Below are positions 5,800-60,413 of a DNA stretch of 64,000 nucleotides, one piece after another. How positions within the stretch are numbered: position 1 is the first letter of the stretch; each line of letters starts with the position of its first letter. The notes under the pieces are model-generated. The model was given only the letters and a program-made list of their open reading frames with translations, was not told the origin of the DNA and searched no databases. Source of the stretch: Lachnospiraceae bacterium (GTDB lineage: Bacteria; Bacillota; Clostridia; Lachnospirales; Lachnospiraceae). The stretch is from the NCBI GenBank assembly GCA_017938145.1, contig JAGBCB010000013.1, positions 1 through 64,000 of the forward strand, read 5' to 3'. The translations under genes were made by a program, and so were the position numbers.

Positions 5800-5800
5800 A

Positions 5801-7234: not shown

Positions 7235-7284
7235 TTATTTTCATATTCTATTTTCCTGCATCCGCAGTAGAATTTGAAGTTACA

Positions 7285-40077: not shown

Positions 40078-40107
40078 ATCTATACTCTCCTTCTTTTTTA
40101 TATAGAA

Positions 40108-40194: not shown

Positions 40195-41718
40195 TTAGTT
40201 GTTGTTTGCGTTCTCAATCTTTGCATTCCAGGAATCACGTAATCTTTCAGCAGCTTCTGCAGGAGTTTCGATAACGCCGTCTGCATTTGCATTACCTAAG
40301 CCCCAAAGAAGGTCTTCACCCATGTTGATATCGGTGATGAATGTGTGATGAAGAACTTCACCTCTGTTTAATAAGTAGGTCATAGTTTCATCAACGGATT
40401 CAGTATCACAGAAGTTTGGATACTGACCATTCTGCCAAGCACTATAATCTTCGTAGCCTGGGATTGGCTGTGTGTAAAGGTCATAAGCGAAAGCAACCTT
40501 CCAAGCCTTTTCTTCGTCGTAGCAAGCTGGGATACAGTAAATGTTATCTTCGTAGAAGGAAACGTACTCATCAAATCTTGTGTTGTTTTCGTTCTTAGGG
40601 AATACGATACAACCAAAGTCATCAAGTCTAGCTTCGTCATTGATCATCTGACCAGCTCTGTAAACCTGATCTGCGAAGAAGCAAGCCTTACCTTCCTTGA
40701 ACGCTGCGATGAAGTAGTCCCAAGAACCTTCGCCCTGTGGCATTAAGTACTTGTTCTGCATCTGAACGGACCAGTTAAGAGCTTCTAATGTTTCCTTAGC
40801 TTCAAGGTTATTGAAGAACTTACCATTTGCATCCTTACCAATGAAGGAACCGCCGTTTGCGATAACTGCTGCCTTATGGAATTCGGACTGCTGCTGAACC
40901 ATACCGTAGATATCGATGATACCGTCAGCGTCTACGTCTCTCTGAACCTTACTACAAAGTTCATCGAACTTAGCCCATGTCCATTCGCCGTTTCTCTGAA
41001 GCTCGTACAGGTAGTTAGGGTCGATACCAGCTTCCTGTAAAAGTCTCTTGTTAAAGTACATACATCCTCTTGGTTCTGGGTCAATACCTCTGAAGCCGTA
41101 GATAGCGCCGTTCTTAGATAAGAGATTATGAACACCGCTGCTCCACTTATCCTTAGAGAAGTCTAAGCAGTCTAAACCGGAAACATCATACATAAGACCA
41201 CTGTTCATAGCGGAAATCATTTCGCCGCCCTGACGGAGACAGAATACATAGTATTCGTCGCCACCTGTTGTAGCGTAGTCGATGAAATCCTGTGGGTTGG
41301 AGCCCCAGTCACCGATAGCCATTTCCTTAATTGTGAAGTTATATGTATCCATTGCCCAAAGTAAGTATTCCTTACGAGCTTCATCAAAGTCATCCTTTGG
41401 AACTAAATCAGCGATGTTATCGCCTGCGGACCACCAGTCACGGATGATAACTTCGATACCGCCAAGGTCTACTGTGTTACCGTTAGCATCTGTTCTGATA
41501 ACATATGCTTCTGGGATTGGGGTAGGTGTTGCTGTTGCTTCAGGCTCTTCTGTCTTGCCTGGATCTACAGTACCCTCATCAGTCTTACCTGTGTCAGGTG
41601 CCTTTGTTGGGTCAGTTGTAGTACCTGGATCCTTAGAACCACAACCAGCCATTGCTCCCACCGCTGTGATAGCTGCTAAGGAAACTGCTAACATTTTTCT
41701 TACTGTCTTACTAATCAT
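40195..41718 (-). CDS. ABC transporter sugar-binding lipoprotein (CUT1 family)
   Basis: 507 residues. A lipoprotein signal ends at AMAGC (C26), then a Thr/Pro/Asp-rich linker (about 27-65), then a family 1 extracellular solute-binding domain with typical blocks (RGCMYFNKRLLQEAGIDPNYLYELQRNGEWTWAKFDELC, GKACFFADQVYRAGQM, AWKVAFAYDLY). Aromatic residues are abundant, as in oligosaccharide binders. The start at 41718 (MISKTV) follows GAGGAGG. It belongs with the two permeases encoded just upstream. Ligand inferred as xylo-oligosaccharide. Confidence 0.9.
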   Translation of the reverse strand: MISKTVRKMLAVSLAAITAVGAMAGCGSKDPGTTTDPTKAPDTGKTDEGTVDPGKTEEPEATATPTPIPEAYVIRTDANGNTVDLGGIEVIIRDWWSAGDNIADLVPKDDFDEARKEYLLWAMDTYNFTIKEMAIGDWGSNPQDFIDYATTGGDEYYVFCLRQGGEMISAMNSGLMYDVSGLDCLDFSKDKWSSGVHNLLSKNGAIYGFRGIDPEPRGCMYFNKRLLQEAGIDPNYLYELQRNGEWTWAKFDELCSKVQRDVDADGIIDIYGMVQQQSEFHKAAVIANGGSFIGKDANGKFFNNLEAKETLEALNWSVQMQNKYLMPQGEGSWDYFIAAFKEGKACFFADQVYRAGQMINDEARLDDFGCIVFPKNENNTRFDEYVSFYEDNIYCIPACYDEEKAWKVAFAYDLYTQPIPGYEDYSAWQNGQYPNFCDTESVDETMTYLLNRGEVLHHTFITDINMGEDLLWGLGNANADGVIETPAEAAERLRDSWNAKIENANNN

Positions 41719-41764
41719 TGTTTTTGTCCTCCTCTTTTTTATTTCTCGCCCATCCTTCTCCTGC

Positions 41765-41791
41765 AACCGGAGGTTTCCGGGTCCTCCGGTT
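41765..41791 (-). other. Stem-loop between permease and binding-protein genes
   Basis: Arms AACCGGAGG (41765-41773) and CCTCCGGTT (41783-41791), with an outer partial stem. It lies in the leader of the binding-protein cistron and may mark an mRNA processing point giving the binding protein a more abundant message. Confidence 0.65.
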
Positions 41792-41816: not shown

Positions 41817-42824
41817 TTAACCCTTAATACCGGTGTTTGCCAAGCTCTCAACGAAGCCCTTCTGTGCAAACAGATACAGTACTAATAACGGGATAATTAC
41901 CATTAAGGTACCGGTAGAAATAATACAACTTGTGTAACCCGGGGAAGCACCCGCGGAGTTCTTAAGAATAGTTGTAATATATGCTCCCAGCTGTGTAGCA
42001 ATTCTGCTCAGCTGTACGGATAATAATCTTGTATTACCCAGGAACATCTTGGAATAGAAGCCGTCTGTCCACTGCCATACAAAAGAGAACAGGAAACAGG
42101 AAACTAAAATCGGCTTTGCATCCGGAAGCATGATCTTTAAGAAGGTTCTTAAAGTACCGCATCCGTCTACGTAAGCTGCTTCCTCCAGCTCGATTGGCTG
42201 GTTACGGAAGTACTGACGTAATAAGTAAATGTATAATCCGTTCTTTAAGCCCATACAGCCCGCACTCATTAAGTAGTACGGAAGAACGGAACCACGCAGG
42301 TTCAATGCTTCTCCGTTGATTGCCTTGAAGATTCCGAAGATATCGAAGAATCTGAAGTGCAAATGTAACGGTGTTGCAAGAATCTGTGGTGGAATTACAA
42401 TAAGTAAAATTACACAGGCAAACCAGAAATTCTTAAGCGGGAACTTAAATCTGGCAAAACCGTATCCTACTAAGGTACACATGGATACCTGCAGGATGGC
42501 AATGGTAAGGGAAATAATAAACGTATTTCTTAATGCCTCGCCATATCCCATGAACTGTGCTGCCAGTTCATAGTTTGCTGTAGTAAAGTTTGCAGGAATG
42601 TTAACAACCATGGTGTTGTATAAGTCCTGCTCATCCATGAAACTTACCGAAATTTTATTTAAAATCGGCTGAAGAATCAGGAAACATAAACCAAACATCA
42701 TAAACAACCGGCAGATGCGGTAGGAATAATCCATCGCAACCTTTTTTAACAGGTAGCCTTCACTTTTTTTATTTCTAATCCAGAATTTTTGCCATTTATT
42801 CAATTTTGCTTCTCTTTTAGTCAT
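41817..42824 (-). CDS. ABC sugar permease, MalG type
   Basis: 335 residues, six membrane helices. The EAA loop is ELEEAAYVDGCGTLRTFLKIMLPDAKP, which contacts the ATPase. It overlaps the preceding permease gene by 8 bp. The long N-terminal cytoplasmic part (about 25 residues) is basic. Forms the channel with the protein at 42817-43725 and uses the binding protein at 40195. Confidence 0.93.
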   Translation of the reverse strand: MTKREAKLNKWQKFWIRNKKSEGYLLKKVAMDYSYRICRLFMMFGLCFLILQPILNKISVSFMDEQDLYNTMVVNIPANFTTANYELAAQFMGYGEALRNTFIISLTIAILQVSMCTLVGYGFARFKFPLKNFWFACVILLIVIPPQILATPLHLHFRFFDIFGIFKAINGEALNLRGSVLPYYLMSAGCMGLKNGLYIYLLRQYFRNQPIELEEAAYVDGCGTLRTFLKIMLPDAKPILVSCFLFSFVWQWTDGFYSKMFLGNTRLLSVQLSRIATQLGAYITTILKNSAGASPGYTSCIISTGTLMVIIPLLVLYLFAQKGFVESLANTGIKG

Positions 42825-43725
42825 AGTAGTACACCACCTTTGACAGAATAAGTGAGGTCAAACCGATAATGGCCATTACAATGCCGAAGTATATCCAAGC
42901 CATTGCAGATGCAGGACCGTAGCTTAACTTAGCAAGCATGATATCCTGGATTTTCTTAATAACCTGATTATCTGTTCTCATACAGAAGTCTACGATTGTG
43001 TAAACCAGATTTACTAAGAGAAGAGGGCTGATCATCGGGAAAGTAATTTTCCATAAGCTTTCCCAGGAAGTACAGCCCTCAATGGAGGCTGCCTCATACA
43101 TACTCTTGGAAATGGTCTGCAAACCGGATAAGAAGATAATAATCTGGATACCGGATGCCAATACTACATCGTAAATTCTGTCGATAATATCAAATACTAC
43201 CTTAAATACACTGTTACCTACACCGGATACATTTAAAACCTCTTTAATAGTATCGGTGATGGAAACTCCGGTAGCACCTTCCATCTCAATAACGTCTCGC
43301 ATCTGAGCCATGATTGGGTTATCATATTCTACACCGAGAATAACACCGGAGGATAAGATAACCGGCAGGAAGAATACGCCTCGTACAAATGCACGGCCCT
43401 TAAATTCCTGGTTTAACAACAGGGCTGCGAAAAAGCTGAATACGATGATGGCAGGTACGTTAATAGCCATTCTGGTTAATTCTTCTGTTAATAATCTGGT
43501 AAAGGTTAAGTCTACCGTAAATGCTTCTACAAAGTTCTTTAATCCCCAAAATACATTGGTAAAGCCACCAGGACCTACCTGCACGTCACAGAAGCTCATG
43601 TACAGGGACTGGAAAAACGGTTTCACCATAAAGGCAAGAAAGCCAATTATGAAAGGGAGGATAAACAGATAGCCGGCAATTGCCTTTCTCTTCTGAAGAC
43701 CCTCATATTTTGATCTTCTCTTCAT
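42817..43725 (-). CDS. ABC sugar permease, MalF type
   Basis: 302 residues, six membrane helices, with the EAA loop MYEAASIEGCTSWESLWKITFPMISP. An extra stretch of about 60 residues (EYDNPIMAQMRDVIEMEGATGVSITDTIKEVLNVSGVGNSVFKVVFDIIDR) sits in an extracellular loop, longer than in standard CUT1 permeases. First permease of the second pair. Confidence 0.92.
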   Translation of the reverse strand: MKRRSKYEGLQKRKAIAGYLFILPFIIGFLAFMVKPFFQSLYMSFCDVQVGPGGFTNVFWGLKNFVEAFTVDLTFTRLLTEELTRMAINVPAIIVFSFFAALLLNQEFKGRAFVRGVFFLPVILSSGVILGVEYDNPIMAQMRDVIEMEGATGVSITDTIKEVLNVSGVGNSVFKVVFDIIDRIYDVVLASGIQIIIFLSGLQTISKSMYEAASIEGCTSWESLWKITFPMISPLLLVNLVYTIVDFCMRTDNQVIKKIQDIMLAKLSYGPASAMAWIYFGIVMAIIGLTSLILSKVVYYYD

Positions 43726-43755: not shown

Positions 43756-46356
43756 TTACCGTGTCACGGTGTAGTCTCTTGCAGGTACCACCGTTCCCTC
43801 AGGTGTTGTATAGTCAGTGTAGTCGTAGTTTACATAAACCTTAGTACCGTCTTCATATGTGGTACAGGTTACTAATCCTGAGTCTGTAAGGAATTCATGA
43901 TTTGTCATTTCCTGACTGAATACGTGACCCAACTCGCTGTTATAGCGGTTGTAGGTTTCGTACATTTCATCCTTACAAGCTGTATATTCGGAACCGAAGT
44001 ACTGGGTGTACAACGTATTCTGCAGAGTAAACGGATTTTCCTGCATTATAGTATATGCAAGGCCTGCACCGTATTCTGCGGACTTTAACAGCTCATCTTC
44101 CGGATTTGCTGTTAAGTTTAATGGTTCACCGGTGTAATCCACAAATCCGTGGATTGCCATCTGATAGAATGGAACCTGCTTATCAATAATGGTATATTCA
44201 GGACCACCTAAAGGCATGTTCGTAACGATATCTGCGTAAGCTATGGCATATTCGTTACCTGCATTCAGCATAACCTTGGTTCCTTCGGAAACCTTTGCAA
44301 GGTAGTTAGACTGGTTTTCTCTTTCCTTTTCGCGGCTGACCGGTGTCTTTCTGGTGAAGTCGGAGGAAAGATCCCGACCCATATCCTGGAAGGAAGCTCC
44401 TGCTCCAAGAGAATTTACCTTATCAACAAAGTTGTCTGCCAGTTCATAAATCAAACTGTTCTTCACAAGATAGTAAGCAGCCAAATCTTCACGCTCGCCA
44501 AAGGTAATGTTATTGTATGTATAAATTTCTGCTTTTTCTTTACTTACCTGACGTGCAGCGTCGGTAAATACGAAGAAGCCTTCCTTTAATCCACTGTCAA
44601 TAGCATAGTTTGTAATACCATCTAAGTAAACGTCAACATTCTGATCCTTAGCTGTAGATACCAGACTTGTAAGTGCCTTATTACCACCCAGTTCCTTAAC
44701 CGCTTTTACCTTGTTGAATATGGTCTGACGGACACCGTCATTTGCCCAACCGGTAACCTTAACGGAAAGATTATTCATGCCGGAACTCTTCATTTCTGTA
44801 ATAAGGTCTGCTGCTTCGTTAAAGGTAGTAAGTGCTAACGGTTTGGAAACCGGAATACCTAATACCTGTTTAATCTTATCAACTGCTCCTACAATTTCTA
44901 CAACTGCAGGTGCTTCTTTGGTATCGTTCTTATCCATGGAATACATGGAAGTCAGATAATCTTTATAAGCCATGGCCATGTCTACATAATTGCCGGAATT
45001 TACAAGAATGTATTTCTGTCTGTAAAGTTCTCCTTCCGGAAGCTGTGGTTCATAAACGTAAACATCGCCGTTGGTCTTATTGGAAACCTCGTATTTTTCA
45101 CGCTTGGTAACAATATAAGTGGAGTTTACATAATTGTACATGTTGTATCTTCCACTGATATCTGCGGTAATAGAGGAATACGGTGCACCGTTCTCAATTA
45201 CACAGAGATAAGATGCATTGCCCTTGGATAAACCGTATACATTGAAGTTAGTTCTTGTTTCATGTACCAAAGCGGTTCTTACCTTGGACATATCCCAACC
45301 ATATACATCTGCGTAATAGCTGTTCTGTGCAAGCTTACCGTTATTGAAGTTGATTAAAGCACCGCCGCCGGCAGGAACTAATAAGAAACCTTCGTCTTCG
45401 GTTGTACCTGCACCAAAGTATGGCAGGAAGGATAAGGAGTAAACCGGAGTATCCTTTTTGCCTTCAATACTGTCTGCAGGAACCTCTACGGAGAAGCCGG
45501 TTTCATCCAGACGGTAAATTACGCTGATATTGAATGTTGGCTTATTGGTGGATTTTTCTGCAGTATCCAGTTCTTTATCAAGCTCATACTGTTCGTAAGT
45601 GTAATCGATGCTTCCGAAAATCTGCTCCAGCTTTCCTTTGATGGCGTCTGTTGCACTGTCACGGATAACGTAGATAATGCCGTCTGCCATGGATGGATAA
45701 CGCTCTAAGAGAGCATCCTTTTCTTTTTCATCACTCTTACTTAAGTTGTTGATATCAATCTTTTTGTAGTACTGGGAAAGTAAGTTTTTATTACCGCCGG
45801 TTAAGATGCCCTTGTACTCTTCGTACTTTTCCAGTGTCATAACAGGTGGAATAATGTACTCTCTCTGTACATCACCGATGGTGTAATCAACTTTGATGTA
45901 ATCTTCGCCCTGCTCAATTTCGTACAGCTTATTGGTAACACTGAATTCGTAATTGTTATAAAGAGCATTTACACCGCTTCGGTTACTATAGGTTAACATT
46001 ACTGTGGAACGTAATTCGTTCTTTTTGTTAGGTGTGGATGCCTTGGCATCTGCAGTAATTCCTGTTTCATCCGGATTGGAATACCAAACCTCACCGGTTT
46101 CTTTTACAGTAATGTTAAACTGTGTTGTTTCTGAATCCATGGAGAAGAGGAATTTGTCGTTCTCCATAACGAACTCCTGCTTATCTCCGTCGTAGCCTCT
46201 CATTTGAATTATTTCTTCTTCCACAACCTTATCCGGCCATAAGATAATTACTGCTATGGCTGCAACAATGATTGCGAGGATAACCAGAGGGCCAATCAGA
46301 CTTTTTAATTCTTTGATGATTGCAGCTTTGATTTCTGCTTTTCTTTCTTGTCTCAT
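43756..46356 (-). CDS. DUF5696-family membrane-anchored extracellular protein
   Basis: 866 residues. One N-terminal membrane helix (about 21-42) leaves a large outside part. The first half is beta-rich (about 45-450). From about 500 to 760 alternating beta/alpha segments suggest a barrel, with LDGITNYAI, GASFQDMGRDLSSDF and VMLNAGNEYAIAYADIVTNMPLGG in places where glycosidase catalytic acids usually lie. A short beta end follows (about 820-866). DUF5696 proteins are found with CUT1 transporters in Firmicutes. A carbohydrate-binding or glycosidase role is a reasonable inference; nothing proves it. Confidence 0.75.
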   Translation of the reverse strand: MRQERKAEIKAAIIKELKSLIGPLVILAIIVAAIAVIILWPDKVVEEEIIQMRGYDGDKQEFVMENDKFLFSMDSETTQFNITVKETGEVWYSNPDETGITADAKASTPNKKNELRSTVMLTYSNRSGVNALYNNYEFSVTNKLYEIEQGEDYIKVDYTIGDVQREYIIPPVMTLEKYEEYKGILTGGNKNLLSQYYKKIDINNLSKSDEKEKDALLERYPSMADGIIYVIRDSATDAIKGKLEQIFGSIDYTYEQYELDKELDTAEKSTNKPTFNISVIYRLDETGFSVEVPADSIEGKKDTPVYSLSFLPYFGAGTTEDEGFLLVPAGGGALINFNNGKLAQNSYYADVYGWDMSKVRTALVHETRTNFNVYGLSKGNASYLCVIENGAPYSSITADISGRYNMYNYVNSTYIVTKREKYEVSNKTNGDVYVYEPQLPEGELYRQKYILVNSGNYVDMAMAYKDYLTSMYSMDKNDTKEAPAVVEIVGAVDKIKQVLGIPVSKPLALTTFNEAADLITEMKSSGMNNLSVKVTGWANDGVRQTIFNKVKAVKELGGNKALTSLVSTAKDQNVDVYLDGITNYAIDSGLKEGFFVFTDAARQVSKEKAEIYTYNNITFGEREDLAAYYLVKNSLIYELADNFVDKVNSLGAGASFQDMGRDLSSDFTRKTPVSREKERENQSNYLAKVSEGTKVMLNAGNEYAIAYADIVTNMPLGGPEYTIIDKQVPFYQMAIHGFVDYTGEPLNLTANPEDELLKSAEYGAGLAYTIMQENPFTLQNTLYTQYFGSEYTACKDEMYETYNRYNSELGHVFSQEMTNHEFLTDSGLVTCTTYEDGTKVYVNYDYTDYTTPEGTVVPARDYTVTR

Positions 46357-46370
46357 ATTTTCCCTCCGAG

Positions 46371-47027
46371 TTAAATTCTAAAGAGAATTTCCCTTACAAT
46401 AGATACAAAGTATGCAATACCCTGGCTGATCATACTGAAGAACAGCAGGAGAATGAATACGATAACCAGCATTGCAAAAATGGAGAATGCTGTGAATAAA
46501 ATTGTTTTACTCATGGTGTATTCGTGAATCTGCATCATGGCAACCACAATGTAAATTCCACAGAATATTAATACGATTGTATTAATCAGGGTGTAAAACT
46601 CTGCTTCGTTTACCGTTACCACATTACTGAAAATAATCAGCGGGAACTGGAATAACGGATAAGGAAGCATTGCATAACAGGTTGCCATGTAAATCTGAGG
46701 AAGTCTTGCCTTACCATCAAACAATGTGGTAAGTGCCCAGTTACCGACTACCCACAGAGCCAGCGGAAATACGATACTTCCAAGATAAAGGAAGATATTT
46801 ACTTCCGGCCAGTAAACCCGGTTAAAAATAAAACTGGTAAACTGCAGACTGGCAATTCTGGCAACTAAAGTCAAAATCAATATGGTATTCGCTACTGCCA
46901 GGGAACCACGCTTTTCGTGGGTTAAATCCCAGTAACCATCCAACGGATGTGTCATGCAGTAAAACGCGAATTTAAAGCTTTTAAAATATCGCGTATAGGT
47001 TTCTTTCTTCTTTAATGAAGCTAACAT
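46371..47027 (-). CDS. YIP1-family membrane protein
   Basis: 218 residues with five membrane helices (about 45-65, 72-97, 110-130, 138-158, 168-195) and the start FKFAFYCMTHPLDGYWDLTHEKRGSL typical of bacterial YIP1 (PF04893) proteins. It is encoded between the DUF5696 and NHL/TPR genes. Role unknown; it may help assemble or anchor the membrane complex. Confidence 0.83.
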   Translation of the reverse strand: MLASLKKKETYTRYFKSFKFAFYCMTHPLDGYWDLTHEKRGSLAVANTILILTLVARIASLQFTSFIFNRVYWPEVNIFLYLGSIVFPLALWVVGNWALTTLFDGKARLPQIYMATCYAMLPYPLFQFPLIIFSNVVTVNEAEFYTLINTIVLIFCGIYIVVAMMQIHEYTMSKTILFTAFSIFAMLVIVFILLLFFSMISQGIAYFVSIVREILFRI

Positions 47028-47051
47028 ATCTGCCTCCGATTCTTGACGTTT

Positions 47052-48554
47052 TTACCTTCTGAAAATATCTGCAGTGTCAATTTCGTATTTAATCTTCTTA
47101 ATTCTTCCAACGATAAGAGGAATAACAATTATGACTGCTAAAACAATAACTATCCAAATAATGTTTTCTTCTACCCATTCTTTACGATAGTACTGGAATG
47201 CCTTGGAATAGTTTTCTGCATCCCACTTTAATTCAAAGTAATCCATTGCTTCACGGTAACGCTGCTGACGAAGTAATGCACGGCCGATACCGATGTAAGC
47301 CAAATCATAGTTTCCGTTTAAAGCGATTACCTTTCTCCAAGCCGCTTCAGAACCTGCATAGTCACCGGACTTGAATAAGTCCATAGCCTCGTAAATCAGG
47401 TTGCCGTACTCGGTTGGTGTGAATAAGGTAAGACTGCAGTCTACCGCATCAAGTACTAACAAATCGTAACCCATATGCTCAATAGCAGATGGTGTACGGA
47501 AGTATCCGTCTACGTTACCGCTGCCACCGAAGGCAAATAACATATTGCCCTGGTCATCGTAACCAAATAAACGACCTCTGTTTCTGTCCAGTACAACGTA
47601 GGATTCATTTTCAAATGCTGTAACATCGGTTAACAGGGATGGACCGGAATAACCACCGGCATTGCCAATCCAAACGTCACCGCAGATTACCCAGTTACCG
47701 TTACGGATTAAGATGTCGCTGCCCATCATGTTTAAACGACGGACCGGATCAACACTTCCGTTATCGATTTCAACCTCTGTTACATTAGTTGTTGTTGTGT
47801 AAATGAAGCCTTCGTGGTCGATATAGATGTTATCGTATTCGGTTGGAACGAAGTTTTCCATCTGGGCACGCTGTGCCTTGGTAGCAATCTTCTTCCAAAT
47901 ATAGTCCATAAAGTTGTAAGTAGCCGGTGTAGCACCTACGAAACCAACGAAGGTTCCGTCCGGCTCATACTTAATTAAACCTTTGTTAACGTTTGTTGCG
48001 ATGCAGTATACACGGCCCGCAGTGTCGATAACAATTTTATGCGGAAGGAATTCCATTGCCTGGTCAAAGGTTGCGTCAGTAGGCTTTGTAAAGGACATTA
48101 CATACTCTAAATCCTTTGTCAGTTTTAAAACTCTTCCGTTACTCTTGTCTGCGATGTAAAAATAATCTTCATCTACCGCAATGTCGTGCGGTGCATTAAA
48201 TGTGGTTACTTCTACGTCGCCGGTAAACTCGGTAATTTCACGAACCAATTCGATTTTTGTATCACCGGTTCTCTGAAGCTCTAAAATTCTGTTGTTATTT
48301 GTATCAACAATGTAAATATAATCTTTGTAAACGAACAATCCTTGTGGGGATGTCAATTTGTTTTCCAGACCGAAATCTACAGCAGTAAATGTTCCTGCAA
48401 CTTCGTAAGCGTCCGGTGAATATTGTACATCTCCCCAGTAGTCATATGTATAGGTATAACCCTTTTCTGCTGCCTGTGCCTGTATCGGCATACTTACGAG
48501 AATCATAAGACAAGCCGCCGCAAAGGCTCCTATTCTTTTTGCTAATCTTTTCAT
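47052..48554 (-). CDS. Secreted NHL-repeat/TPR protein with C-terminal membrane anchor
   Basis: 500 residues. A signal peptide (about 1-28) is followed by an NHL-type beta-propeller (about 55-385, units such as LTSPQGLFVYKDYIYIVDTNNNRIL, FNAPHDIAVDEDYFYIADKSNGRVL and EFLPHKIVIDTAGRVYCIA). A TPR-like pair of helices (about 395-450) and one membrane helix (about 460-480) with a basic tail come next. The propeller would face the outside. It may bind sugar or scaffold the transporter; no catalytic motif is seen. Confidence 0.85.
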   Translation of the reverse strand: MKRLAKRIGAFAAACLMILVSMPIQAQAAEKGYTYTYDYWGDVQYSPDAYEVAGTFTAVDFGLENKLTSPQGLFVYKDYIYIVDTNNNRILELQRTGDTKIELVREITEFTGDVEVTTFNAPHDIAVDEDYFYIADKSNGRVLKLTKDLEYVMSFTKPTDATFDQAMEFLPHKIVIDTAGRVYCIATNVNKGLIKYEPDGTFVGFVGATPATYNFMDYIWKKIATKAQRAQMENFVPTEYDNIYIDHEGFIYTTTTNVTEVEIDNGSVDPVRRLNMMGSDILIRNGNWVICGDVWIGNAGGYSGPSLLTDVTAFENESYVVLDRNRGRLFGYDDQGNMLFAFGGSGNVDGYFRTPSAIEHMGYDLLVLDAVDCSLTLFTPTEYGNLIYEAMDLFKSGDYAGSEAAWRKVIALNGNYDLAYIGIGRALLRQQRYREAMDYFELKWDAENYSKAFQYYRKEWVEENIIWIVIVLAVIIVIPLIVGRIKKIKYEIDTADIFRR

Positions 48555-48582
48555 AAGAATTCTCCCTGTATACGATGTACAA

Positions 48583-49485
48583 TCAATCTTTCAAACCGGA
48601 ACTTGCCATTGTCTCCAGAATCTGGCTCTGGGACAAAATGAAAGTTATAATCGGTACTATCATTAAAACTACGCTTACTGCGGCCTGCTGACCGGTTCTG
48701 GCAATACTGCCGGCTGCTACCTGATTAAGGGCAAATGCCAGCATTTTCTTTTCTTCGGAATAAATAAAGGTGGTGCCACCGTTATTCCATAAATTCTGTA
48801 CGGAGAAAATAATCAGTGTCAACCATGCCGGTTTTACGTTTGGCATTACAATGCCGGTGAAAACTTTCCATTCGTTGGCACCGTCGATTTTTGCTGCTTC
48901 GATAAGCGCCATCGGAAGACCTTCCATAAACTGTTTCATTAAGAAGAAGCCCATGGTTCCTCCGAATGCCGGAATAATAATTGACCAGTAGCTGTCAATT
49001 AAATGAAGCTTATTCATAATGATGTAGGTTGGAAGTCCTAAAACCGTGCCGTTAAACAGCATCGCGGTAGTTACAACCTTGAAGAAGAACTTTCCGCCCG
49101 GGAAATCGTACTTAGCAAGTACGAAAGCACCCATGGATGCAATAATTAAATGACCTGCGGTACCAAGCGCTGTAACAAATACGGTGTTAAACACGTATCT
49201 CGGGAAGGTTACCCAGCTCTTACCCATGGATACGAATAAGTCTGCGAAGTTGTCAAGCGTCGGGTTCTGTGCAAAAAACTTTGGTGGGAACCGGTATAAT
49301 TCATCCAAAGGCTTTAACGCATTGCTTATCGAGAATACTAACGGTACCGCCATGAGTATTGCAGTCAGCGCTAAAAACAGATAGAGGAAAATGTCGCCCC
49401 AGATGGAACGGTTGGGTTTTCTTCTCTTTATTAACTTTTTCTTGTATGGTTTTGGTTGTTTTGGTGTTTTTTGCTTTTTGCTCAT
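48583..49485 (-). CDS. ABC sugar permease, MalG type (first pair)
   Basis: 300 residues, a very basic N-terminus (SKKQKTPKQPKPYKKKLIKRRKPNR) and six membrane helices. The EAA loop is MALIEAAKIDGANEWKVFTGIVMPNVKP. It starts one base from the preceding permease stop. Partner of the protein at 49487. Confidence 0.93.
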   Translation of the reverse strand: MSKKQKTPKQPKPYKKKLIKRRKPNRSIWGDIFLYLFLALTAILMAVPLVFSISNALKPLDELYRFPPKFFAQNPTLDNFADLFVSMGKSWVTFPRYVFNTVFVTALGTAGHLIIASMGAFVLAKYDFPGGKFFFKVVTTAMLFNGTVLGLPTYIIMNKLHLIDSYWSIIIPAFGGTMGFFLMKQFMEGLPMALIEAAKIDGANEWKVFTGIVMPNVKPAWLTLIIFSVQNLWNNGGTTFIYSEEKKMLAFALNQVAAGSIARTGQQAAVSVVLMIVPIITFILSQSQILETMASSGLKD

Positions 49486-49486
49486 A

Positions 49487-50425
49487 TCATGTTCCTACTC
49501 TTCTCAACAGACTTTGAATTGCTTTGTTACATAAAATCATCATTAAGAATAAAATGGTTGCAATAGCAGATGCATAACCCATTTCGAATCTTTGGAAACC
49601 GTAGTCCTGAATATGGCTTACGATTGTTCTTGCGGCGTAGTCCGTACTTGGGAAACCGCACAATGTCTGCATGACATAACCAACACCAAAGGAACCTGTG
49701 ATGGTCATAATAGCACCGAACAGAAGCATCGGCTTCATGCCCGGTAAGGTAATGTACCAAAGCTCCTGCCAACGGTTTTTCACACCGTCCATATAACCTG
49801 CTTCATACTGGGACTGGTCTACGCCCTGTAAGCCCGCTACGAAGGAAAGGAATCCGGTACCTAAACTCATCCAGAGAGTAACCAGCATACAAATCCAAAG
49901 CATATATGCCGGATTGGTCAGCCAGAGGATTGGTGCATCGATGATACCCCACTCAATTAAGTAGGAGTTGATGTAACCGTAAGCGTCACCACGGAATAAC
50001 TGTGAGAAAATAACAACACAGGAATTCGCAAGGGATGGTGCGTAGAAAATGATTACCGCAATGGTTCTGATCCAACGCGGAAGCTCATTGATGAGCCATG
50101 CGAACAGGAAGGAGGCAATGTAGCCAAGCGGTCCTGTAATAATCGCAACCATCAGGGTATTCTTTAAACCCGTAATAAATACGTCATCGTCCAGAATCAA
50201 ACTGATGTAATTGTCTAATCCGGCCCATTTTGCCGGTTCAAAAACATTGTAATAAGTAAAGCTGTAATAAATGGATGTGATTACCGGCAAAATTGTAAAG
50301 GTAAAGAAAAGAATTGCGTACGGTGCCAGGAATAAATAACACATCTTTCTCTGCTTTGCTTTTTTCACGGCAACCTGCATATTGTGCTTACGCAGCGCCA
50401 CGTATTTTTGTAAATACTCTTTCAA
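49487..50425 (-). CDS. ABC sugar permease, MalF type (first pair)
   Basis: 312 residues, six membrane helices, EAA loop SQYEAGYMDGVKNRWQELWYITLPGMKP. A TTG start at 50425 is used with GGAG about 9 bases upstream; an internal Met 16 codons later is a less likely start. It follows the 977-residue binding protein by 17 bp, so the three form one transporter. Confidence 0.92.
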   Translation of the reverse strand: MKEYLQKYVALRKHNMQVAVKKAKQRKMCYLFLAPYAILFFTFTILPVITSIYYSFTYYNVFEPAKWAGLDNYISLILDDDVFITGLKNTLMVAIITGPLGYIASFLFAWLINELPRWIRTIAVIIFYAPSLANSCVVIFSQLFRGDAYGYINSYLIEWGIIDAPILWLTNPAYMLWICMLVTLWMSLGTGFLSFVAGLQGVDQSQYEAGYMDGVKNRWQELWYITLPGMKPMLLFGAIMTITGSFGVGYVMQTLCGFPSTDYAARTIVSHIQDYGFQRFEMGYASAIATILFLMMILCNKAIQSLLRRVGT

Positions 50426-50442
50426 AGTGTGTCACTCCTTTC

Positions 50443-53376
50443 TTAGTCTTCGTACATCGGCATGCCGAATTCTTTACGTTTCTTTTCTATTTCTTCGTTA
50501 ATCTGAAGCACGTAGTCGATAATGGTTTCTCGCGGATCTTCCTTTGCCGAGGTTACCTTACGAAGTGCGTTGGTAACATGACGGCCGGTATAGTAACCAC
50601 CTGCGATTTCCTTAATACCCTTTGCCCAATCCCACTGTTCCTGTAATACTTCGATATCGTGTGCGCTCCAGGACAGCTGTACGAAGGCGTCTCTGTTTGC
50701 AGTTGCATATCTTGCAGAGGAACCAAGAAGTGCTTCCAATTCACGTCCGTAACGAACCTGTGTATCTGCATCTGCCCACCACTTCATGAATTCCCAGGCA
50801 TTCTGCTTTAAGGTTTCGTCTTCAGTCTTAATCATCATGGTTGCGCCACCGGCGATGAATACGGAACGGTCGATGTAGGTGTTACCGTTTTCATCTACGC
50901 GTTCAGTACCAGGTACCAGTGTGAAGTCCCAAAGACCTCTGATTTCCGGTGCGGAAACCATTAAGGTGTTGTAGGTACCGTAGGATGCAATACCGATTGG
51001 CATTTCACCGGAACGGAAACGGCTTACGAAGTCATAAACTTCCGGAAGACCGTAGTCAGTAAAGTATCTTGCGTATTCTTCGAAAGCCTCTACGCCTTCT
51101 TCGGAATCGATGATTGTTTTTGTATCGGTTTCATTATATAAGTCTCCGCCCTTCTGGAAAAGAAGACTAAAGTACATATTTAAGTCTGCGGAAGTACTTT
51201 GCACTGCAAGTGCATTAGCAGCAGTGGTGCTACCGGAAGCACTAGGAATCGCTACAGTCAAGCTCTTACCCTGAATGGTTGGGAGCATTTCGATTAACTC
51301 TGTCCATGTGTTCGGAAGTCCTAATCCGAGTTCTTCCATAACATCCTTACGATAGAACATTACGCAGAAGCCCTGGGTTTCCGGTACAGCGTAAATTTCA
51401 TCACCTAAGCGGAACTGGCGGTAGGAACTTTCGGTATAAGGTGCAAGCACTTCTTTGTAATCTGCGAACTGTGTGATTGGCTCTGCCGCACCACGGAGCG
51501 CGTAGTCAACCGGCTGGTTCGTCTGGGCAGAAATCAGTATGTTTGGACCTCTGCCTGCCATAACCGCATTGAGAACTGCGTCTGCACCAACGATTTCAAG
51601 GTTAACCTTAACTCCTGTTTCCGGAGTAAAGCTGTCGTCAATCATGGTCTTTAAAATAGTACCCTGGTCACGGCCGGTGGTAACCCATACGGTGATTACA
51701 TCTTCCTTGTCGTCATAAATATCACCGACTGCATTATAGTCAACCAAGAAGGAAGCAACGAATGCTTTTACTTCATGTACTGCATTATCAAAGAAATTAC
51801 TTTCGTCTTTTTCTACTGTTGCACCGGTACCGCTTACTACTAAGTAGTCAACATCCAGTTTGATTTCGGACATACTGAGAATAGAAGTACCGATAGCGGT
51901 AATGTTATCCTTCCAGGTTGTAAACTCTACCGTGATTTTTTCAGGACGTTCTACGAATTTTTCCATCTGGTTTGCTACCGTCTGTGCGGTGGTGATGTAT
52001 TCGTTCTTCTGTCCTGTATAAGCTACCGTATCATCAACAATCTTGAAGAGACGCTTAGCTTCAATATCCATAGCCTCAATAACTTCCGGATAAACGGACT
52101 CAATGTGGTAGTCACGGTATTTATCAGGAGATGCTCCGGTATAAACCAGAATCTTACGGTACATCTGATTTAAACGGTAGGAGGAATCGGATAACTCGGA
52201 AAGAATATGACCGAGTCCGCCGAGAGTTGCCTCTAAACGGATGGTATGTGTACCTTCTGTAAGGTAAAACTCGTAAGGAGTTCCTTCTTCATCAGCAAGT
52301 GTCATGCTGTTCCAGTCATTTCCGAAACCAAAGAACACTTCCTGCATTTCAGCAAAAGGAATTTCTCCGTCGATGTATAAGCTACGGCAGGAAACGTTAC
52401 CTCTTGCATAGTTCTGACGGGCCTTTACCATAATGTTGTAGTAGCCGTCTTCCGGAACTGTGAATTCCCATTCAATCCACTGGCCTGCTGTCTTCCAGGT
52501 ATCACCACCAACGTAGTTAAGAATGGTATGCATTACGTCGTATGGAGATGTGTTAGCAGATGCCTTATCGTATTTTGCATAAAGGGAGGATTCGGAACGT
52601 CTTACGGAATCTTCACCTTCGAGCTTTGCTACATAATTAACACCCTCACCGGTAGCAGCTGCGCCGCCCTGTGCACGGTACTCTTCGTAAGAAGCTGTTG
52701 TTTCTACTGCCGCCACCTTAAAGGTACGGATAATCATTGGCTCATTTACACCTTCTAAGGTAATGGTGTTTTTGCCTTTTTCAAAATAGAAACGGTATGG
52801 TTCGATTTCGTAACCCATATCATCTCTGAAATATGTATTCTGCCAATCATAAATTTCAACCTGCATTGGTCGGATCTGATTGCCCTGGTTATCAACCACC
52901 GGCTCGCCCTTATCTGTCCAGATGCGGCCGAAGGTAATGTTTTCTGCGTCATCAAACGGAAGCTCTCCGTTAATCTTAAGGGTTCTTTCTGCAGGAACAC
53001 CTCTGGATGCTACGGTTAAATATTCTGCATAGAGATTATAAAAACCTGCCTCCGGAACATCTACTTCCCAGGTAACCTTGGAACCGATTTCGGTATAAAG
53101 AGCGTTGCCCTCGTAAACTTCCACGCCAGTTCCTTCTTTATAAGAAAGAACATCTACATCCACAGTGTGCTGAGGCATTGCCGCATCCTTATGATTCTTC
53201 TGATATCCGGTGTATGTTCCCTCCAGCATCATACCGTCTGCATCGGCAGTCAAGTCTGCTCCTGCATACTTTTCACTGAAGTTTTCCACCTCCCTGAAGT
53301 TCGACAGCCAGATTGCCACACCGGCAACTGCTATGACTCCGATGAAAATCAATAGTTTTTTAATCGCGCCTTTCAT
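50443..53376 (-). CDS. Giant membrane-anchored binding protein with two CBM-like domains and a C-terminal ABC solute-binding domain
   Basis: 977 residues, about twice the size of a normal binding protein. An uncleaved N-terminal helix (about 7-24) anchors it. Two beta-sandwich domains resembling CBM6/35 follow (about 45-225 and 245-430); each has a VPEAGFYNLYAEY or VPEDGYYNIMVKA strand and a LKINGELPF or LYIDGEIPF strand, so they are internal duplicates. After a helical linker (about 430-570), a family 1 solute-binding domain (about 580-960) has FYRKDVMEELGLGLPNTWTELIEML and AWEFMKWWADADTQVRYG. No lipobox is present. It is the first gene of the 14-gene xylan operon. Confidence 0.88.
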   Translation of the reverse strand: MKGAIKKLLIFIGVIAVAGVAIWLSNFREVENFSEKYAGADLTADADGMMLEGTYTGYQKNHKDAAMPQHTVDVDVLSYKEGTGVEVYEGNALYTEIGSKVTWEVDVPEAGFYNLYAEYLTVASRGVPAERTLKINGELPFDDAENITFGRIWTDKGEPVVDNQGNQIRPMQVEIYDWQNTYFRDDMGYEIEPYRFYFEKGKNTITLEGVNEPMIIRTFKVAAVETTASYEEYRAQGGAAATGEGVNYVAKLEGEDSVRRSESSLYAKYDKASANTSPYDVMHTILNYVGGDTWKTAGQWIEWEFTVPEDGYYNIMVKARQNYARGNVSCRSLYIDGEIPFAEMQEVFFGFGNDWNSMTLADEEGTPYEFYLTEGTHTIRLEATLGGLGHILSELSDSSYRLNQMYRKILVYTGASPDKYRDYHIESVYPEVIEAMDIEAKRLFKIVDDTVAYTGQKNEYITTAQTVANQMEKFVERPEKITVEFTTWKDNITAIGTSILSMSEIKLDVDYLVVSGTGATVEKDESNFFDNAVHEVKAFVASFLVDYNAVGDIYDDKEDVITVWVTTGRDQGTILKTMIDDSFTPETGVKVNLEIVGADAVLNAVMAGRGPNILISAQTNQPVDYALRGAAEPITQFADYKEVLAPYTESSYRQFRLGDEIYAVPETQGFCVMFYRKDVMEELGLGLPNTWTELIEMLPTIQGKSLTVAIPSASGSTTAANALAVQSTSADLNMYFSLLFQKGGDLYNETDTKTIIDSEEGVEAFEEYARYFTDYGLPEVYDFVSRFRSGEMPIGIASYGTYNTLMVSAPEIRGLWDFTLVPGTERVDENGNTYIDRSVFIAGGATMMIKTEDETLKQNAWEFMKWWADADTQVRYGRELEALLGSSARYATANRDAFVQLSWSAHDIEVLQEQWDWAKGIKEIAGGYYTGRHVTNALRKVTSAKEDPRETIIDYVLQINEEIEKKRKEFGMPMYED

Positions 53377-53656: not shown

Positions 53657-53670
53657 TGAAAACGCTTTCA
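53657..53670. promoter_or_regulatory. Catabolite response element (cre)
   Basis: TGAAAACGCTTTCA, a perfect palindromic match to the CcpA/LacI-family cre consensus (TGWAANCGNTNWCA). It lies about 20 bp after the predicted AraC transcription start, where bound CcpA would block elongation in the presence of preferred sugars. Confidence 0.9.
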
Positions 53671-53730: not shown

Positions 53731-54666
53731 ATGGCCAAACATGAAAAATTGAATCAGTTTGACGATTTAAACAGAATCAACAGTGACTGGTCCGGTGCCA
53801 AGTATATTAACAGCACCCATGAACTGGTTGCCTATCACAACGACACCATCATCCGCATATGGCGTAATGTAGAAAAAGTCGGCTTCAAAGCTCACTGGCA
53901 CTCTTCCATCGAGATTGTCATGCCGGTAGAAAATTATTATGATGTTGTTCTTGACAACACCGTACACCGCATCAATCCGGGAGAAATTTTCATCATCCCG
54001 CCAAGAGCGCTGCACGAACTGGCTGCTCCGCCAAGCGGTGTCCGTTTTATCTTCTTGTTTAATATTAATGTTCTGGCACAATTAAAGGGTTTTGCTTCCA
54101 TCCAGACCCTGTTGTCCAAGCCGCAGCACATTACAAAGGATACACATCCTCTTGTCTATAATGAAGTATACCAGACTTTGCTTGATATGTGTAAGGAATA
54201 TATTTCCGGTAACCCATACAGCGAGCTGTCCATCTTCTCCTTATTAATAAGAATGTTGATTTCCCTGTACGAAAATCACATCCAGACTACAGACCTGTTC
54301 CAGAACGTCAACGTTAACAAGCATCAGGAATACGTGGCTAAATTCGGTAATCTTTTGGAATACATCGACAGCCACTATACCGAAGACTTAACATTGGAAG
54401 AAATGGCAGATATCATCGGCTTTTCCAAATACCATTTTTCCAGATTGTTTAAGCAGTATACCAACTTTACATTCTGCGATTACTTAAAACACCGCCGTAT
54501 CCAGGCGGCAGAAATGCTTTTAGACCAGCCGGAGTATTCCATTACAGAGGTTGCGCTTCAGGCCGGTTTCCCAAGTATTTCTACCTTTAACCGTATTTTT
54601 AAAGAATACAAAAACTGTACCCCGACCGAATTCCGCAACATGCGTCAGAAGCGTCGGCACCAGTAA
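53731..54666 (+). CDS. AraC-family transcriptional regulator of the xylan locus
   Basis: 311 residues. The N-terminal half is a cupin sugar-sensing domain (HWHSSIEIVMPVENYYDVVLDNTVHRINPGEIFIIPPRALHEL). The C-terminal 100 residues contain two helix-turn-helix units (LTLEEMADIIGFSKYHFSRLFKQYTN and SITEVALQAGFPSISTFNRIFKEYK). It is divergent from the large operon and upstream of the GH26-like gene, so activation of both in response to a xylan sugar is the natural model. The gene is itself under a cre site. Confidence 0.92.
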   Translation: MAKHEKLNQFDDLNRINSDWSGAKYINSTHELVAYHNDTIIRIWRNVEKVGFKAHWHSSIEIVMPVENYYDVVLDNTVHRINPGEIFIIPPRALHELAAPPSGVRFIFLFNINVLAQLKGFASIQTLLSKPQHITKDTHPLVYNEVYQTLLDMCKEYISGNPYSELSIFSLLIRMLISLYENHIQTTDLFQNVNVNKHQEYVAKFGNLLEYIDSHYTEDLTLEEMADIIGFSKYHFSRLFKQYTNFTFCDYLKHRRIQAAEMLLDQPEYSITEVALQAGFPSISTFNRIFKEYKNCTPTEFRNMRQKRRHQ

Positions 54667-54693
54667 AACAAAAGAGAGAGCATGGAGGAAGTT

Positions 54694-57226: not shown

Positions 57227-58366
57227 TCACCACATACGATAGTTTCCGCTTAATGCGAGATATGCAAAGAAGTACAGGCAGTTGTCGTAGTATCTTCTCT
57301 TGCCTTCGCGAAGCGGCATCTTAAAGAAGCTTTCTACCCATTCGCGGCTTGCTTCGGTAGTTGCGGCCAGAACGCTCTGTGCAACCGTAACCTGAAGGCC
57401 CACCGGATGGAGGCAAAGTTCCTTTACGGCAATTGTGCCGTCAATTTCGTAAATATAAAATTCACCGGTGCGGAGTGCCGGAAGCAGGAACTTCTGGATG
57501 TTTGCTGCTGCATCACACTGACCGATATCAATACCGAACCATTCGTAGTCCAGACCGATGTTTGCCGCGGTACGGTAGGAGTCACTGAAGAACCAGTCAT
57601 GACGGTCACGGCTCCAAGGAAGCGGACGGCTCATAGGGGAACCATCGAACTCTGCATATTCTGCAGAGAATCCGGTTTCCGGATGACATGCCTTAATTAA
57701 ATATTCACGGCTTGCTTTGGCTGCTTCCTTCCAGAACGGTCTGTCTTCTTCATAAGCCCAAAGAGCAAACAATTCATAGAAATGAGGCAGATGATAGGAT
57801 GGATCAGTAAAATCAATGCCCGGAACAAACAAAATCTGCTTGTTTTCTAAGTTCCACATCGGAACACCCACTCTGCCGTTCTGACCCTTATGCAGGCAGG
57901 CACGCAAAATCTCTTTTGCTTCTGCTTCGTAGTTAAAGATGCCTTCGCCGTTGCCCCAACGGTGAGCCGCAAAGAACAGGGACATAGCAAAGAATTCTTC
58001 ACCGTCCGGCGCCGGACCGTCTGCATTTTTGGTTCCGTCGGTAGCACAGGACCATGCAAAGTAACCTTCATTATAGCCGGTTTCCATCCACATGTAGGTC
58101 TTCGCCCACTTCCATAAACGGTCAAATTCATCTTTCATATTTAACTGTACACAAATCATCATACCATAGGACATACCTTCGGTACGGGCGTCGTTATTGC
58201 CGGTATCCATGATGTATGCCATGTCATCCCCTACAGGGAAATAAACACGTTCGTCTTCTTTGCCGTAAAACCATGTCTGACGGATTTCCTCCAAACGCTT
58301 TGCAACCTCCGCTTCGGAAAAACCGACTTCTGTAAACACATTACGGTACTCTTTTTTCTGTAGCAT
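57227..58366 (-). CDS. GH8 reducing-end xylose-releasing exo-oligoxylanase (Rex)
   Basis: 379 residues, no signal peptide, cytoplasmic. The (alpha/alpha)6 barrel motifs of GH8 are present: NDARTEGMSYGMM with general acid E63, and the RDRHDWFFSDSYRTAANIGLDYEWFG block holding the base Asp. Length and sequence match the Bacillus halodurans Rex enzyme, which cuts xylose from the reducing end of xylo-oligosaccharides of three or more units. Downstream member of the GH10-GH3-GH67-GH8 run. Confidence 0.93.
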   Translation of the reverse strand: MLQKKEYRNVFTEVGFSEAEVAKRLEEIRQTWFYGKEDERVYFPVGDDMAYIMDTGNNDARTEGMSYGMMICVQLNMKDEFDRLWKWAKTYMWMETGYNEGYFAWSCATDGTKNADGPAPDGEEFFAMSLFFAAHRWGNGEGIFNYEAEAKEILRACLHKGQNGRVGVPMWNLENKQILFVPGIDFTDPSYHLPHFYELFALWAYEEDRPFWKEAAKASREYLIKACHPETGFSAEYAEFDGSPMSRPLPWSRDRHDWFFSDSYRTAANIGLDYEWFGIDIGQCDAAANIQKFLLPALRTGEFYIYEIDGTIAVKELCLHPVGLQVTVAQSVLAATTEASREWVESFFKMPLREGKRRYYDNCLYFFAYLALSGNYRMW

Positions 58367-58391
58367 AAGTAATTCTCCCTCCTCAAAATGA

Positions 58392-60398
58392 TTAGTAGAT
58401 TATTCTTCCCTTCTCATCCGGAATTCCGCTCTTCCGGTAAAAATATGAATTCACCTGATCTCGCCAGTCTTTTGCGTTTGTAAGCTGACGTCCAAACCGT
58501 TCTGTTACATTAGCAAAATATTCTGCAGGAACCTTTTCCTCTAAGGTCTGCCAACAGGAAATCATTGCTTCCACCTCTTCCACACCTTGGAAATGGGTGT
58601 CGTATATGTGCTGAATCAATGTTTTTCCGGTGGAAAGAACCCTGGTGTACGGCACATGATGGAAGAACAGCAAAAGTTCTTCCGGACAAGTGTCAATATC
58701 GTTGTACATGGAAGCATTCGGTTCGTTGTACTGGAACGCATAACCGGTACCCTTATCGGTACGGTCCACTCCAATACCCAGATGGTCTGCCCTGTGATAT
58801 GTACCCCAGCGGGAATACTCATAACCATCTACACTGCAGCCGTAATGTACATGAGGAGTTACCATCCAGCCGATACCAAGCGGGCTGGTGTAACGCTCAT
58901 ACACTTCTCTGGATGGAAGCAGAATGGAAAGCACTTTTTCCACCACTTCGTCTTCATTGGATAAGGTCTGGCGGATCCATTCTTCTGCAATTTCCTTTGC
59001 AGAAAGAGAATTTTCAAAAGCCAGACGACCAAAACCGTACAGGTTTGCCGCCGCCAGTACGTTGCCGGTCCAGTATATGTCGTTACCGGTGTTAATCACT
59101 GCCGCAATACCGGTATTTAAATTTCTATGTTCGGTTAATCCGCCGCCGATAATATCAGCCACGGTGTCGTTTTCTTTTCTGATATAGGTCTTGAACTCCA
59201 GAATTTCTTTGAACATCGGAATCAGATAGCATACATCAATCTGATGACCGGTGTATTCCTGGGCAATCTGCACTTCCATCATCTGGTTGGTTTTCTTTAA
59301 CCCGCCAAGAAGCGGTGCCACAGGTTCTCTTACCTGGAAGTCCATCGGACCGTTTTTAATTTGCAGGATAACGTTATCGTGATAATCGCCATCCATCTGA
59401 ATAAAGTTGTCGTACTGTGCGCGGGCTCTGTCGGTTTTGTAATCTCTCCAGTCCTGGGTACAGTTGTATACGAAGCAACGCCAGATAATCAAGGCTCCGT
59501 AAGGCTTTACGATGTCAGCCAGCATATTGGCTCCGTCTGCCTGGGTTCTGCCGTAGGTAAACGGTCCCGGGCGTCCTTCGGAATCGGCTTTTACGAGGAA
59601 GCCTCCAAGCTTTGGAACTCTGGTAAATACCTCTGCCATTTTTTCTTTCCACCAGGCAATTACTTCTTCATTTAACGGGTCTGCACTCTTTGGACCGCCA
59701 AGCTCCAACGGCGACGCAAAGTTTAAACTTAAGTAAAGCTTTATGCCGTATTCCGCAAATAACCCGGAAAGCTCGGCAACCTTGTCGAAGTAACGCTCGG
59801 TAATCAGATACGTTGCTGCATCCTTTACGTTTACATTGTTGATAACAATGCCGTTGATGCCGATGCTTGCCATGAATCTTGCAAAGTCTCTGGTACGCTC
59901 ATCAATGAAAAACTCATTGTTTCTGAAATAAAAGGACCGGCCGGAGTAGCCTCTCTCGATGCTGCCGTCCATGTTATCCCAGTGATTCATCATTCGCAGA
60001 GGCTGGGACGGGGATTTTTTCTCATCCGCACCCTGCAGGGATTTTTCCGTGGCAATGATACGGAGCACATGAAACACTCCGTATAATACGCCGCTTTCTT
60101 CTCCTGCGAGAAGAGTAAGCTTCCCGGACTTCTCTGCCAGACGGTAGGCTCCCTCTAAGTCCGGGGAAGTTGTCTCTTTTTTAATCACAAGTCCCTGTTC
60201 CAAAGGACCTGTTTTTACGGAAATTTCCTGACCGAGCATTTCTTTTACACCAAGGGCCAGTTCCGCAAGTGCATTTTTAATGATAGGATGTTCTGCCTCA
60301 AAGCCTTCCAGGCTTACGTTGCTTACGTACCCTTCATTGCCCTTACTGTTTACTTTTTTATAATCCAGCCAAAGCTGTGTCCAAGGTGTTTTGCTCAT
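58392..60398 (-). CDS. aguA: GH67 alpha-glucuronidase
   Basis: 668 residues, cytoplasmic. Family signatures include MNHWDNMDGSIERGYSGRSFYF, GINGIVINNVN, FLVKADSEGRPGPFTYGRTQADGANM (with the general acid Glu), IIWRCFVYN, VQIAQEYTGHQIDVCYL and WMVTPHVHYG. GH67 frees (4-O-methyl)glucuronic acid only from the non-reducing terminal xylose of aldouronic oligosaccharides, so it works after import. It starts 15 bp after the GH3 stop. Confidence 0.96.
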   Translation of the reverse strand: MSKTPWTQLWLDYKKVNSKGNEGYVSNVSLEGFEAEHPIIKNALAELALGVKEMLGQEISVKTGPLEQGLVIKKETTSPDLEGAYRLAEKSGKLTLLAGEESGVLYGVFHVLRIIATEKSLQGADEKKSPSQPLRMMNHWDNMDGSIERGYSGRSFYFRNNEFFIDERTRDFARFMASIGINGIVINNVNVKDAATYLITERYFDKVAELSGLFAEYGIKLYLSLNFASPLELGGPKSADPLNEEVIAWWKEKMAEVFTRVPKLGGFLVKADSEGRPGPFTYGRTQADGANMLADIVKPYGALIIWRCFVYNCTQDWRDYKTDRARAQYDNFIQMDGDYHDNVILQIKNGPMDFQVREPVAPLLGGLKKTNQMMEVQIAQEYTGHQIDVCYLIPMFKEILEFKTYIRKENDTVADIIGGGLTEHRNLNTGIAAVINTGNDIYWTGNVLAAANLYGFGRLAFENSLSAKEIAEEWIRQTLSNEDEVVEKVLSILLPSREVYERYTSPLGIGWMVTPHVHYGCSVDGYEYSRWGTYHRADHLGIGVDRTDKGTGYAFQYNEPNASMYNDIDTCPEELLLFFHHVPYTRVLSTGKTLIQHIYDTHFQGVEEVEAMISCWQTLEEKVPAEYFANVTERFGRQLTNAKDWRDQVNSYFYRKSGIPDEKGRIIY

Positions 60399-60413
60399 GT
60401 CAATTCTCCATTT

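Follow-up and report, generated by a model that had tools for sequence, protein, structure and literature searches.

The question raised by this locus is why two permease pairs of sugar importers should be encoded together with three proteins whose families carry no annotation beyond unknown, repeat or membrane protein. The locus was found in a stretch of 64,000 nucleotides (the window; positions 1 to 64,000 of contig JAGBCB010000013.1) from a Lachnospiraceae bacterium, in which nine minus-strand genes run without interruption from 53376 down to 40195. In order of transcription these are S, PA1, PA2, N, Y, D, PB1, PB2 and s, and they will be subsequently referred to as the cassette. The series S-PA1-PA2-N-Y-D-PB1-PB2 recurs as a unit that is conserved and inherited together with both its permease pairs; this suggests a machine that can be reused in the uptake of different plant polysaccharides. 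The preferred reading, to which a probability of roughly 0.55 is given, is that this copy encodes a conserved machine for import through the cytoplasmic membrane that serves various plant polysaccharides at different loci, and in which N, Y and D would form a scaffold coupling transporters A and B. The genes are as follows.

50443..53376, minus strand: S, a giant solute-binding protein of 977 residues (Pfam SBP_bac_8, 5.6e-20)
49487..50425, minus strand: PA1, CUT1-type permease, first of pair A (BPD_transp_1, 1.8e-12)
48583..49485, minus strand: PA2, CUT1-type permease, second of pair A (BPD_transp_1, 3e-9)
47052..48554, minus strand: N, exported NHL β-propeller with TPR-like repeats and a C-terminal transmembrane segment (NHL, 8.6e-10)
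46371..47027, minus strand: Y, multi-helix membrane protein of the Yip1 family (Yip1, E 8.5e-11)
43756..46356, minus strand: D, DUF5696 protein with an N-terminal hydrophobic helix and a full GH129-type fold (DUF5696, E 1.1e-183)
42817..43725, minus strand: PB1, CUT1-type permease, first of pair B (BPD_transp_1, 1.3e-8)
41817..42824, minus strand: PB2, CUT1-type permease, second of pair B (BPD_transp_1, 1.7e-11)
40195..41766, minus strand: s, the second solute-binding protein, belonging to a lipoprotein-like group (SBP_bac_1, 1e-6)

The original prediction of nine adjacent genes was correct for every member. All four permeases and both binding proteins pass the Pfam cut-offs, giving the heterodimeric permeases and sugar-type binding proteins that mark CUT1 importers. 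Three UgpC-type ATPases above cut-off are encoded on contigs C23 and C67 of the same genome, away from the cassette contig.

The conservation of the arrangement was followed through three sets of loci. A DUF5696 profile search supplied 80 named loci, the best 80 of 567 and so skewed toward the D of the window. The genus contributed the window and 14 regions of four genomes, one fragment (G003:C150) being left out. From the phylum, 398 genomes were drawn, with at most three candidates scored in each; they supplied 54 of the 55 full-length DUF5696 matches outside the genome of the window, the remaining match (G085:C81:478) lying near a contig start. Of the 149 D loci, 147 are distinct in the last 250 residues of D, and neighbours were counted in the 127 of these with at least 3 kb of upstream and at least 2.5 kb of downstream flank, loci with shorter flanks being dropped. 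N lies upstream of D, and pair B downstream, at all 127 loci. Yip1 was counted by script at 126, as a separate gene in 78 and fused to N in 48; the sole exception (L112) also has a Yip1 gene, with an extra open reading frame before D. The phylum draw alone, duplicates still included, gives 49/49 for each of N, Yip1 and pair B. The place of pair A (at least two permeases upstream) is filled at 103 of the 117 loci whose upstream flank extends to 7.5 kb; S and a permease pair lie downstream instead at six, and at the remaining eight neither place is filled. Median gaps within the cassette range from -8 to +15 bp, and the order of N, Y and D is unchanged in the loci examined. This arrangement of D, N, Yip1 and pair B is far beyond chance, and DUF5696, YIP1 and NHL genes do neighbour CUT1 transporters elsewhere.

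The components are also inherited together. Full-length D (E below 1e-100) is found in 37 of the 398 genomes, and all 37 match both the profile of S and that of the fused N-Y relatives, the latter at E 1e-107 or better; in genomes with unfused genes the N-Y match is sometimes listed without the Yip1 part, and Yip1 is visible in the gene maps. Among genomes lacking D, the N-Y profile has one strong match, a fragment in G246, and weak partial NHL matches in 19 more, and six other genomes contain ordinary binding proteins scoring about 190-330 bits with the S profile. The claim that the three middle proteins go with the transporters is borne out by the invariant order, by the fusion of N and Y and by this co-occurrence of D, N-Y and S genome by genome.

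Twenty of the 80 best-matching named loci come from Treponema metagenome bins of the termite-gut type, where the cassette is complete in L068 and others and incomplete in some. The cassette therefore probably also occurs behind an outer membrane, and is hence not, strictly speaking, a system of the cell surface; the earlier description of it as a Gram-positive analogue of Sus-like systems was too narrow.

The enzymes encoded beside the cassette differ between loci. Same-strand neighbours, clustered by single linkage with one representative scanned per cluster, include among 148 loci the glycoside hydrolase (GH) families GH3 (16 loci), GH10 (14), GH5 (13), GH130 (13), GH26 (10), GH43 (7) and GH67 (6). 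The genome of the window itself holds three copies: the window copy lies beside GH43 and GH115, the second (L005) beside GH5 and GH130, a mannan-type setting, and the third (L006) beside GH43 with an α-L-arabinofuranosidase C-terminal domain, an arabinan-type setting. The cassette is not tied to xylan. The xylan role first proposed fits this copy, which has GH115, GH43, GH67, GH8 and GH3 neighbours and an orthologous, xylan-induced operon in Caldicellulosiruptor bescii, and which probably handles glucuronoxylan fragments, but it does not extend to the two other copies. The mannan-type cassette L005 also encodes a protein of 1137 residues with three CBM65 domains (4508-7921, minus strand), possibly a surface glycan-binding protein.

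The C. bescii operon provides the closest known counterpart. Genome G182 contains a plasmid 100% identical to NC_012036.1 of C. bescii DSM 6725, and its cassette (L180/L205) consists of S, two permeases, an NHL-TPR-Yip1 fusion, a DUF5696 protein, two permeases and s, followed by a GH43 protein of 1370 residues and then by GH10, GH39, GH10, an esterase and GH39. The operon of the xylan degradation locus (XDL) of C. bescii (Anaerocellum), up-regulated on xylan, is described as xloEFG-X-GH129-axoFGE-xynF-xynE-xynD-xyn10A-xynX-xynB (PMC8579813). The order xloEFG-X-GH129-axoFGE with xylan enzymes is found, by gene order and Pfam, at L205/L206, and the published XynR operator sequence (PMC12285236) lies 150 bp upstream of S in G182. 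X is then the NHL-TPR-Yip1 fusion and, from the gene order, the GH129 label belongs to the DUF5696 protein. The main text of the XDL paper names the two transporters, leaves X undescribed and does not mention NHL or Yip1; it reports an msmK deletion and that MsmK is required for oligosaccharide use (PMC8579813). Genes and order of the cassette are as in the window, which differs in having N and Y as separate genes and in its other enzymes. Apart from this operon, no description of the cassette (DUF5696 and YIP1/NHL with an ABC importer) was found in the open-licence literature searched.

Compared with better-known importers, the cassette resembles CUT1 systems that share an MsmK/UgpC ATPase in its permease pairs, its binding proteins and the location of ATPase candidates elsewhere in the genome. 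It departs from ordinary CUT1 importers in having two pairs per unit, a giant binding protein and the constant presence of N, Y and D. The likeness to the Sus-like systems of Bacteroidota extends only to the overall principle by which glycans are bound, gathered and imported: the cassette uses ABC permeases at the cytoplasmic membrane, and no SusC (TonB-dependent channel) or SusD Pfam match was found among the 20 proteins scanned in and around it.

N and Y appear to form one functional part. N of the window has an NHL repeat above the Pfam cut-off, and a C-terminal hydrophobic segment is present in 91/91 unfused N proteins, in agreement with the predicted anchored NHL propeller. The TPR matches of the window protein fall below their cut-offs, though the profile of fused N-Y relatives matches solved TPR proteins. 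The predicted structure of the fused protein of L123 (mean predicted local distance difference test score, pLDDT, 81.0) begins with a signal-like N-terminal helix and continues with a β-propeller at about 45-366, TPR-like helices at 368-428, a long helix and the Yip1 helices. The two proteins probably work together, since they are fused into one at 48 of the 127 distinct loci; this natural fusion is the best evidence for it. Membrane anchoring had been claimed for D and the other non-transporter proteins; for D, as for S, the case is made by hydrophobic segments at the N terminus, and these could be signals rather than anchors.

The proposed machine may be pictured as follows. Y, in the membrane, would hold N, whose propeller and TPR repeats would lie outside; D, as a degenerate glycosidase, would bind glycan or a partner without cutting. 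Together, N, Y and D would build a scaffold without cleaving activity on the external side of the cytoplasmic membrane, which would gather large oligosaccharides and couple the substrate-specific importer B, with s, to transporter A, with the giant S. Both permease pairs would probably be powered by one shared MsmK/UgpC-type ATPase encoded elsewhere.

The different standing of A and B in this picture is seen in the transporter genes. In a tree of 528 permeases, with just 15 other permeases as background, the members of the PA1, PA2, PB1 and PB2 slots each group together, support being 0.993 for the PB1 clade, 1.0 for PB2 and only 0.026 for the PA2 split. Three non-slot permeases inside the PA1 and PB1 groups come from cassette loci (L064, L176 and L189) and are probably cassette members missed in gene parsing. 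Identity between slots was compared in 54 of the 68 non-redundant complete cassettes, those with an adjacent s. Mean pairwise values are 0.56 for PA1, 0.54 for PA2, 0.475 for the binding domain of S, 0.42 for both PB1 and PB2, 0.37 for N, 0.36 for the N-terminal part of S, 0.30 for D and 0.24 for s, the last being chosen as the nearest binding protein and so not always the orthologue. Among the 1431 pairs of loci, the S domain is more conserved than s in 1431, PA1 more than PB1 in 1430 and PA2 more than PB2 in 1418. The three copies of the window's own genome follow the same order, with small margins for PA2 versus PB1.

S itself consists of an N-terminal hydrophobic segment, about 560 residues that are weakly similar to carbohydrate-binding modules (CBMs), and a C-terminal binding domain (581-874); its profile best matches the solved chain 5ysb (E 8.6e-34) across that domain. 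The designation as a giant binding protein holds, but the CBM matches are sub-threshold (CBM_35, 21.3 bits against a cut-off of 28; Golvesin_C, 22.3 against 31.6). Of 118 S proteins, 113 have the hydrophobic segment and two have a motif resembling a lipobox; for s this motif is seen in 49 of 84.

Copy numbers of D and S were compared in 16 hand-picked genomes, including those with loci that have N-D-PB only. The numbers are equal in 11, D exceeds S in five, three of which belong to one genus, and S never exceeds D (in G069, 53 of the 61 S candidates were scored). The D:S ratios of the five, for all matches and then for near-full matches only, are 11:6 and 7:6 (G043), 10:4 and 10:4 (G065), 20:10 and 13:7 (G085), 10:4 and 9:4 (G138), and 8:4 and 8:4 (G168). 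Because A is the more conserved transporter and these genomes have more D than S, transporter A may be a common hub able to serve several N-D-B units. As an observation in its own right, the genome of 3.0 Mb with 20 DUF5696 matches, 13 of them near-full (G085), shows an expansion of this family, and giant binding proteins number about half as many there, as they do in G065, G138 and G168, with 8 to 10 DUF5696 matches each.

The hub idea also has a bolder and less likely version, in which a conserved S-PA hub would be coupled to interchangeable, substrate-specific PB-s importers as a two-engine polysaccharide importer. The propeller, TPR and Yip1 parts would provide the bridge and the dead glycosidase a glycan clamp, and chains longer than normal ABC substrates would be handed over or pulled in by two cooperating ABC engines.

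Whether D is in fact a dead glycosidase is the point on which the next alternative turns. D contains a β-sandwich, a TIM barrel and a C-terminal domain, and matches a GH129-type fold over nearly its full length with a significant profile match. Almost all of D has its fold in common with NagBb, a GH129 α-N-acetylgalactosaminidase (5wzn), and with the GH129-like DagB/ZgGH129 (5opq, 8rzk). D differs from these in its poorly conserved catalytic acids, its N-terminal hydrophobic helix and its location, always inside a transport cassette in the loci examined. Residues were counted in the 147 of 149 D proteins with 700-1000 residues, a set chosen by length that differs from the 147 distinct loci. 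It had been suggested that the system trims its glycans, and D could be an active GH129-like α-glycosidase that removes side chains outside the cell, both importers taking up the products. Such an activity would suit the fold, the published GH129 label at the corresponding position in the C. bescii operon (PMC8579813) and the Asp at the inferred β4 position of the window's D. Acids occupy both inferred sites (β4 and β5), placed by model strand ends and not by residue superposition, in 22 of the 147 (32 with slack), a poor conservation for a family whose gene neighbours stay constant. The position of the Asp in the LDGW segment of NagBb is acidic in 3% of the 147 and non-acidic in 97%, the D protein of C. 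bescii (L180) has Thr at both inferred sites, and across the set the catalytic or sugar-site acids that mark GH129 are not well conserved. A single exo-activity is also hard to fit to xylan, mannan-type and arabinan-type loci together. Trimming by D is thus unlikely. A weak match to the DUF5696 profile elsewhere in the window, an open reading frame of 569 residues (1687-3396, plus strand), proved to be an α-amylase, a distant relative through the shared barrel, and was rejected.

TPR repeats and multi-helix Yip1 proteins are frequent in assembly and trafficking roles. N, Y and D might accordingly act in assembly or quality control, inserting the two permease pairs and the binding proteins or holding them in place, without any direct role in handling glycans, and the presence of the same gene set beside differing substrate enzymes would fit this. 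The glycosidase fold of D, in which a Trp after barrel strand 2 is conserved in 137 of the 147, argues against it and makes this explanation improbable. It is quite unlikely that two independent importers are merely kept in one operon, with the middle genes serving importer B only: the eight loci that carry N-D-PB with no A unit beside them would agree with this, but all eight have S elsewhere in the genome, and S is matched wherever full-length D was found in the genome draw. That N, Y and D are a glycan sensor controlling transport or the regulators of the locus is very unlikely, since they have no Pfam match to a cytoplasmic signalling domain and the regulator type varies among loci, even though a divergent AraC gene and a cre-like site are present at the promoter and regulators are common neighbours (a LacI-type cluster at 16 and a response-regulator cluster at 10 of 148 loci).

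Several points weigh against the preferred reading of a coupling scaffold. The 22 D proteins with acids at both sites, and the manner in which those sites were placed, leave room for catalysis, and the strongly conserved acids that D retains (D355, D666, D725 and E761) could form a different active site. S occurs without D in G107, in G157 (where S is near a contig end) and partly in G083, and the N fragment of G246 likewise lies in a genome lacking D. Eight loci have no adjacent A unit. For the hub, which is argued from counts and identity levels, one pair of copies in the window's own genome gives barely separated identities for PA2 and PB1 (0.34 and 0.33), and the D excess of G043 consists mostly of fragments. 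Slot co-variation of 0.79-0.90 was calculated without an unrelated-gene background and is not used as proof. Finally, an operon could persist without a physical complex, and the interaction within the scaffold is proposed from the genes.

Carriers of the cassette are fibre-degrading bacteria of guts, termites, soil and hot springs, some with multiple copies. Should the cassette prove to be a single machine, it would account for the import of large or branched plant glycans by bacteria that lack Sus systems, and would give its poorly annotated middle families a role. The overlooked X-GH129 gap in the well-studied xylan operon of C. bescii becomes experimentally addressable.

The surroundings of the cassette in the window include the following features.

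36544-38196, minus strand: GH43-CBM6 enzyme, downstream on the same strand (Pfam)
33885-36470, minus strand: GH115 enzyme, downstream on the same strand (Pfam)
53657..53670: palindromic site TGAAAACGCTTTCA, in the interval that separates S from the divergent AraC gene
53731..54666, plus strand: divergent AraC-family regulator (HTH_AraC, 9.8e-24)
57227..62570, minus strand: xylan-type enzymes GH8, GH67 and GH3, past the divergent AraC gene (Pfam)

The palindromic site, LacI/CcpA (cre)-like by consensus, is the sole match to its pattern in the 64 kb; shuffled sequences average 0.08 matches, and 8 of 100 shuffles contain one. The genes downstream of s include one for a GDSL protein. Between s and the GH43 gene, two adjoining genes (38209-39111 and 39127-40110, minus strand) show a distant, sub-threshold likeness to peptidase U32, and among the searched loci this pair recurs only at L023, of the same genus, again after s. 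Adjoining the divergent AraC gene, a gene at 54682-56133 (plus strand) encodes a protein of 483 residues with no Pfam match, and an open reading frame also of 483 residues lies at the corresponding place in L024 of the same genus.
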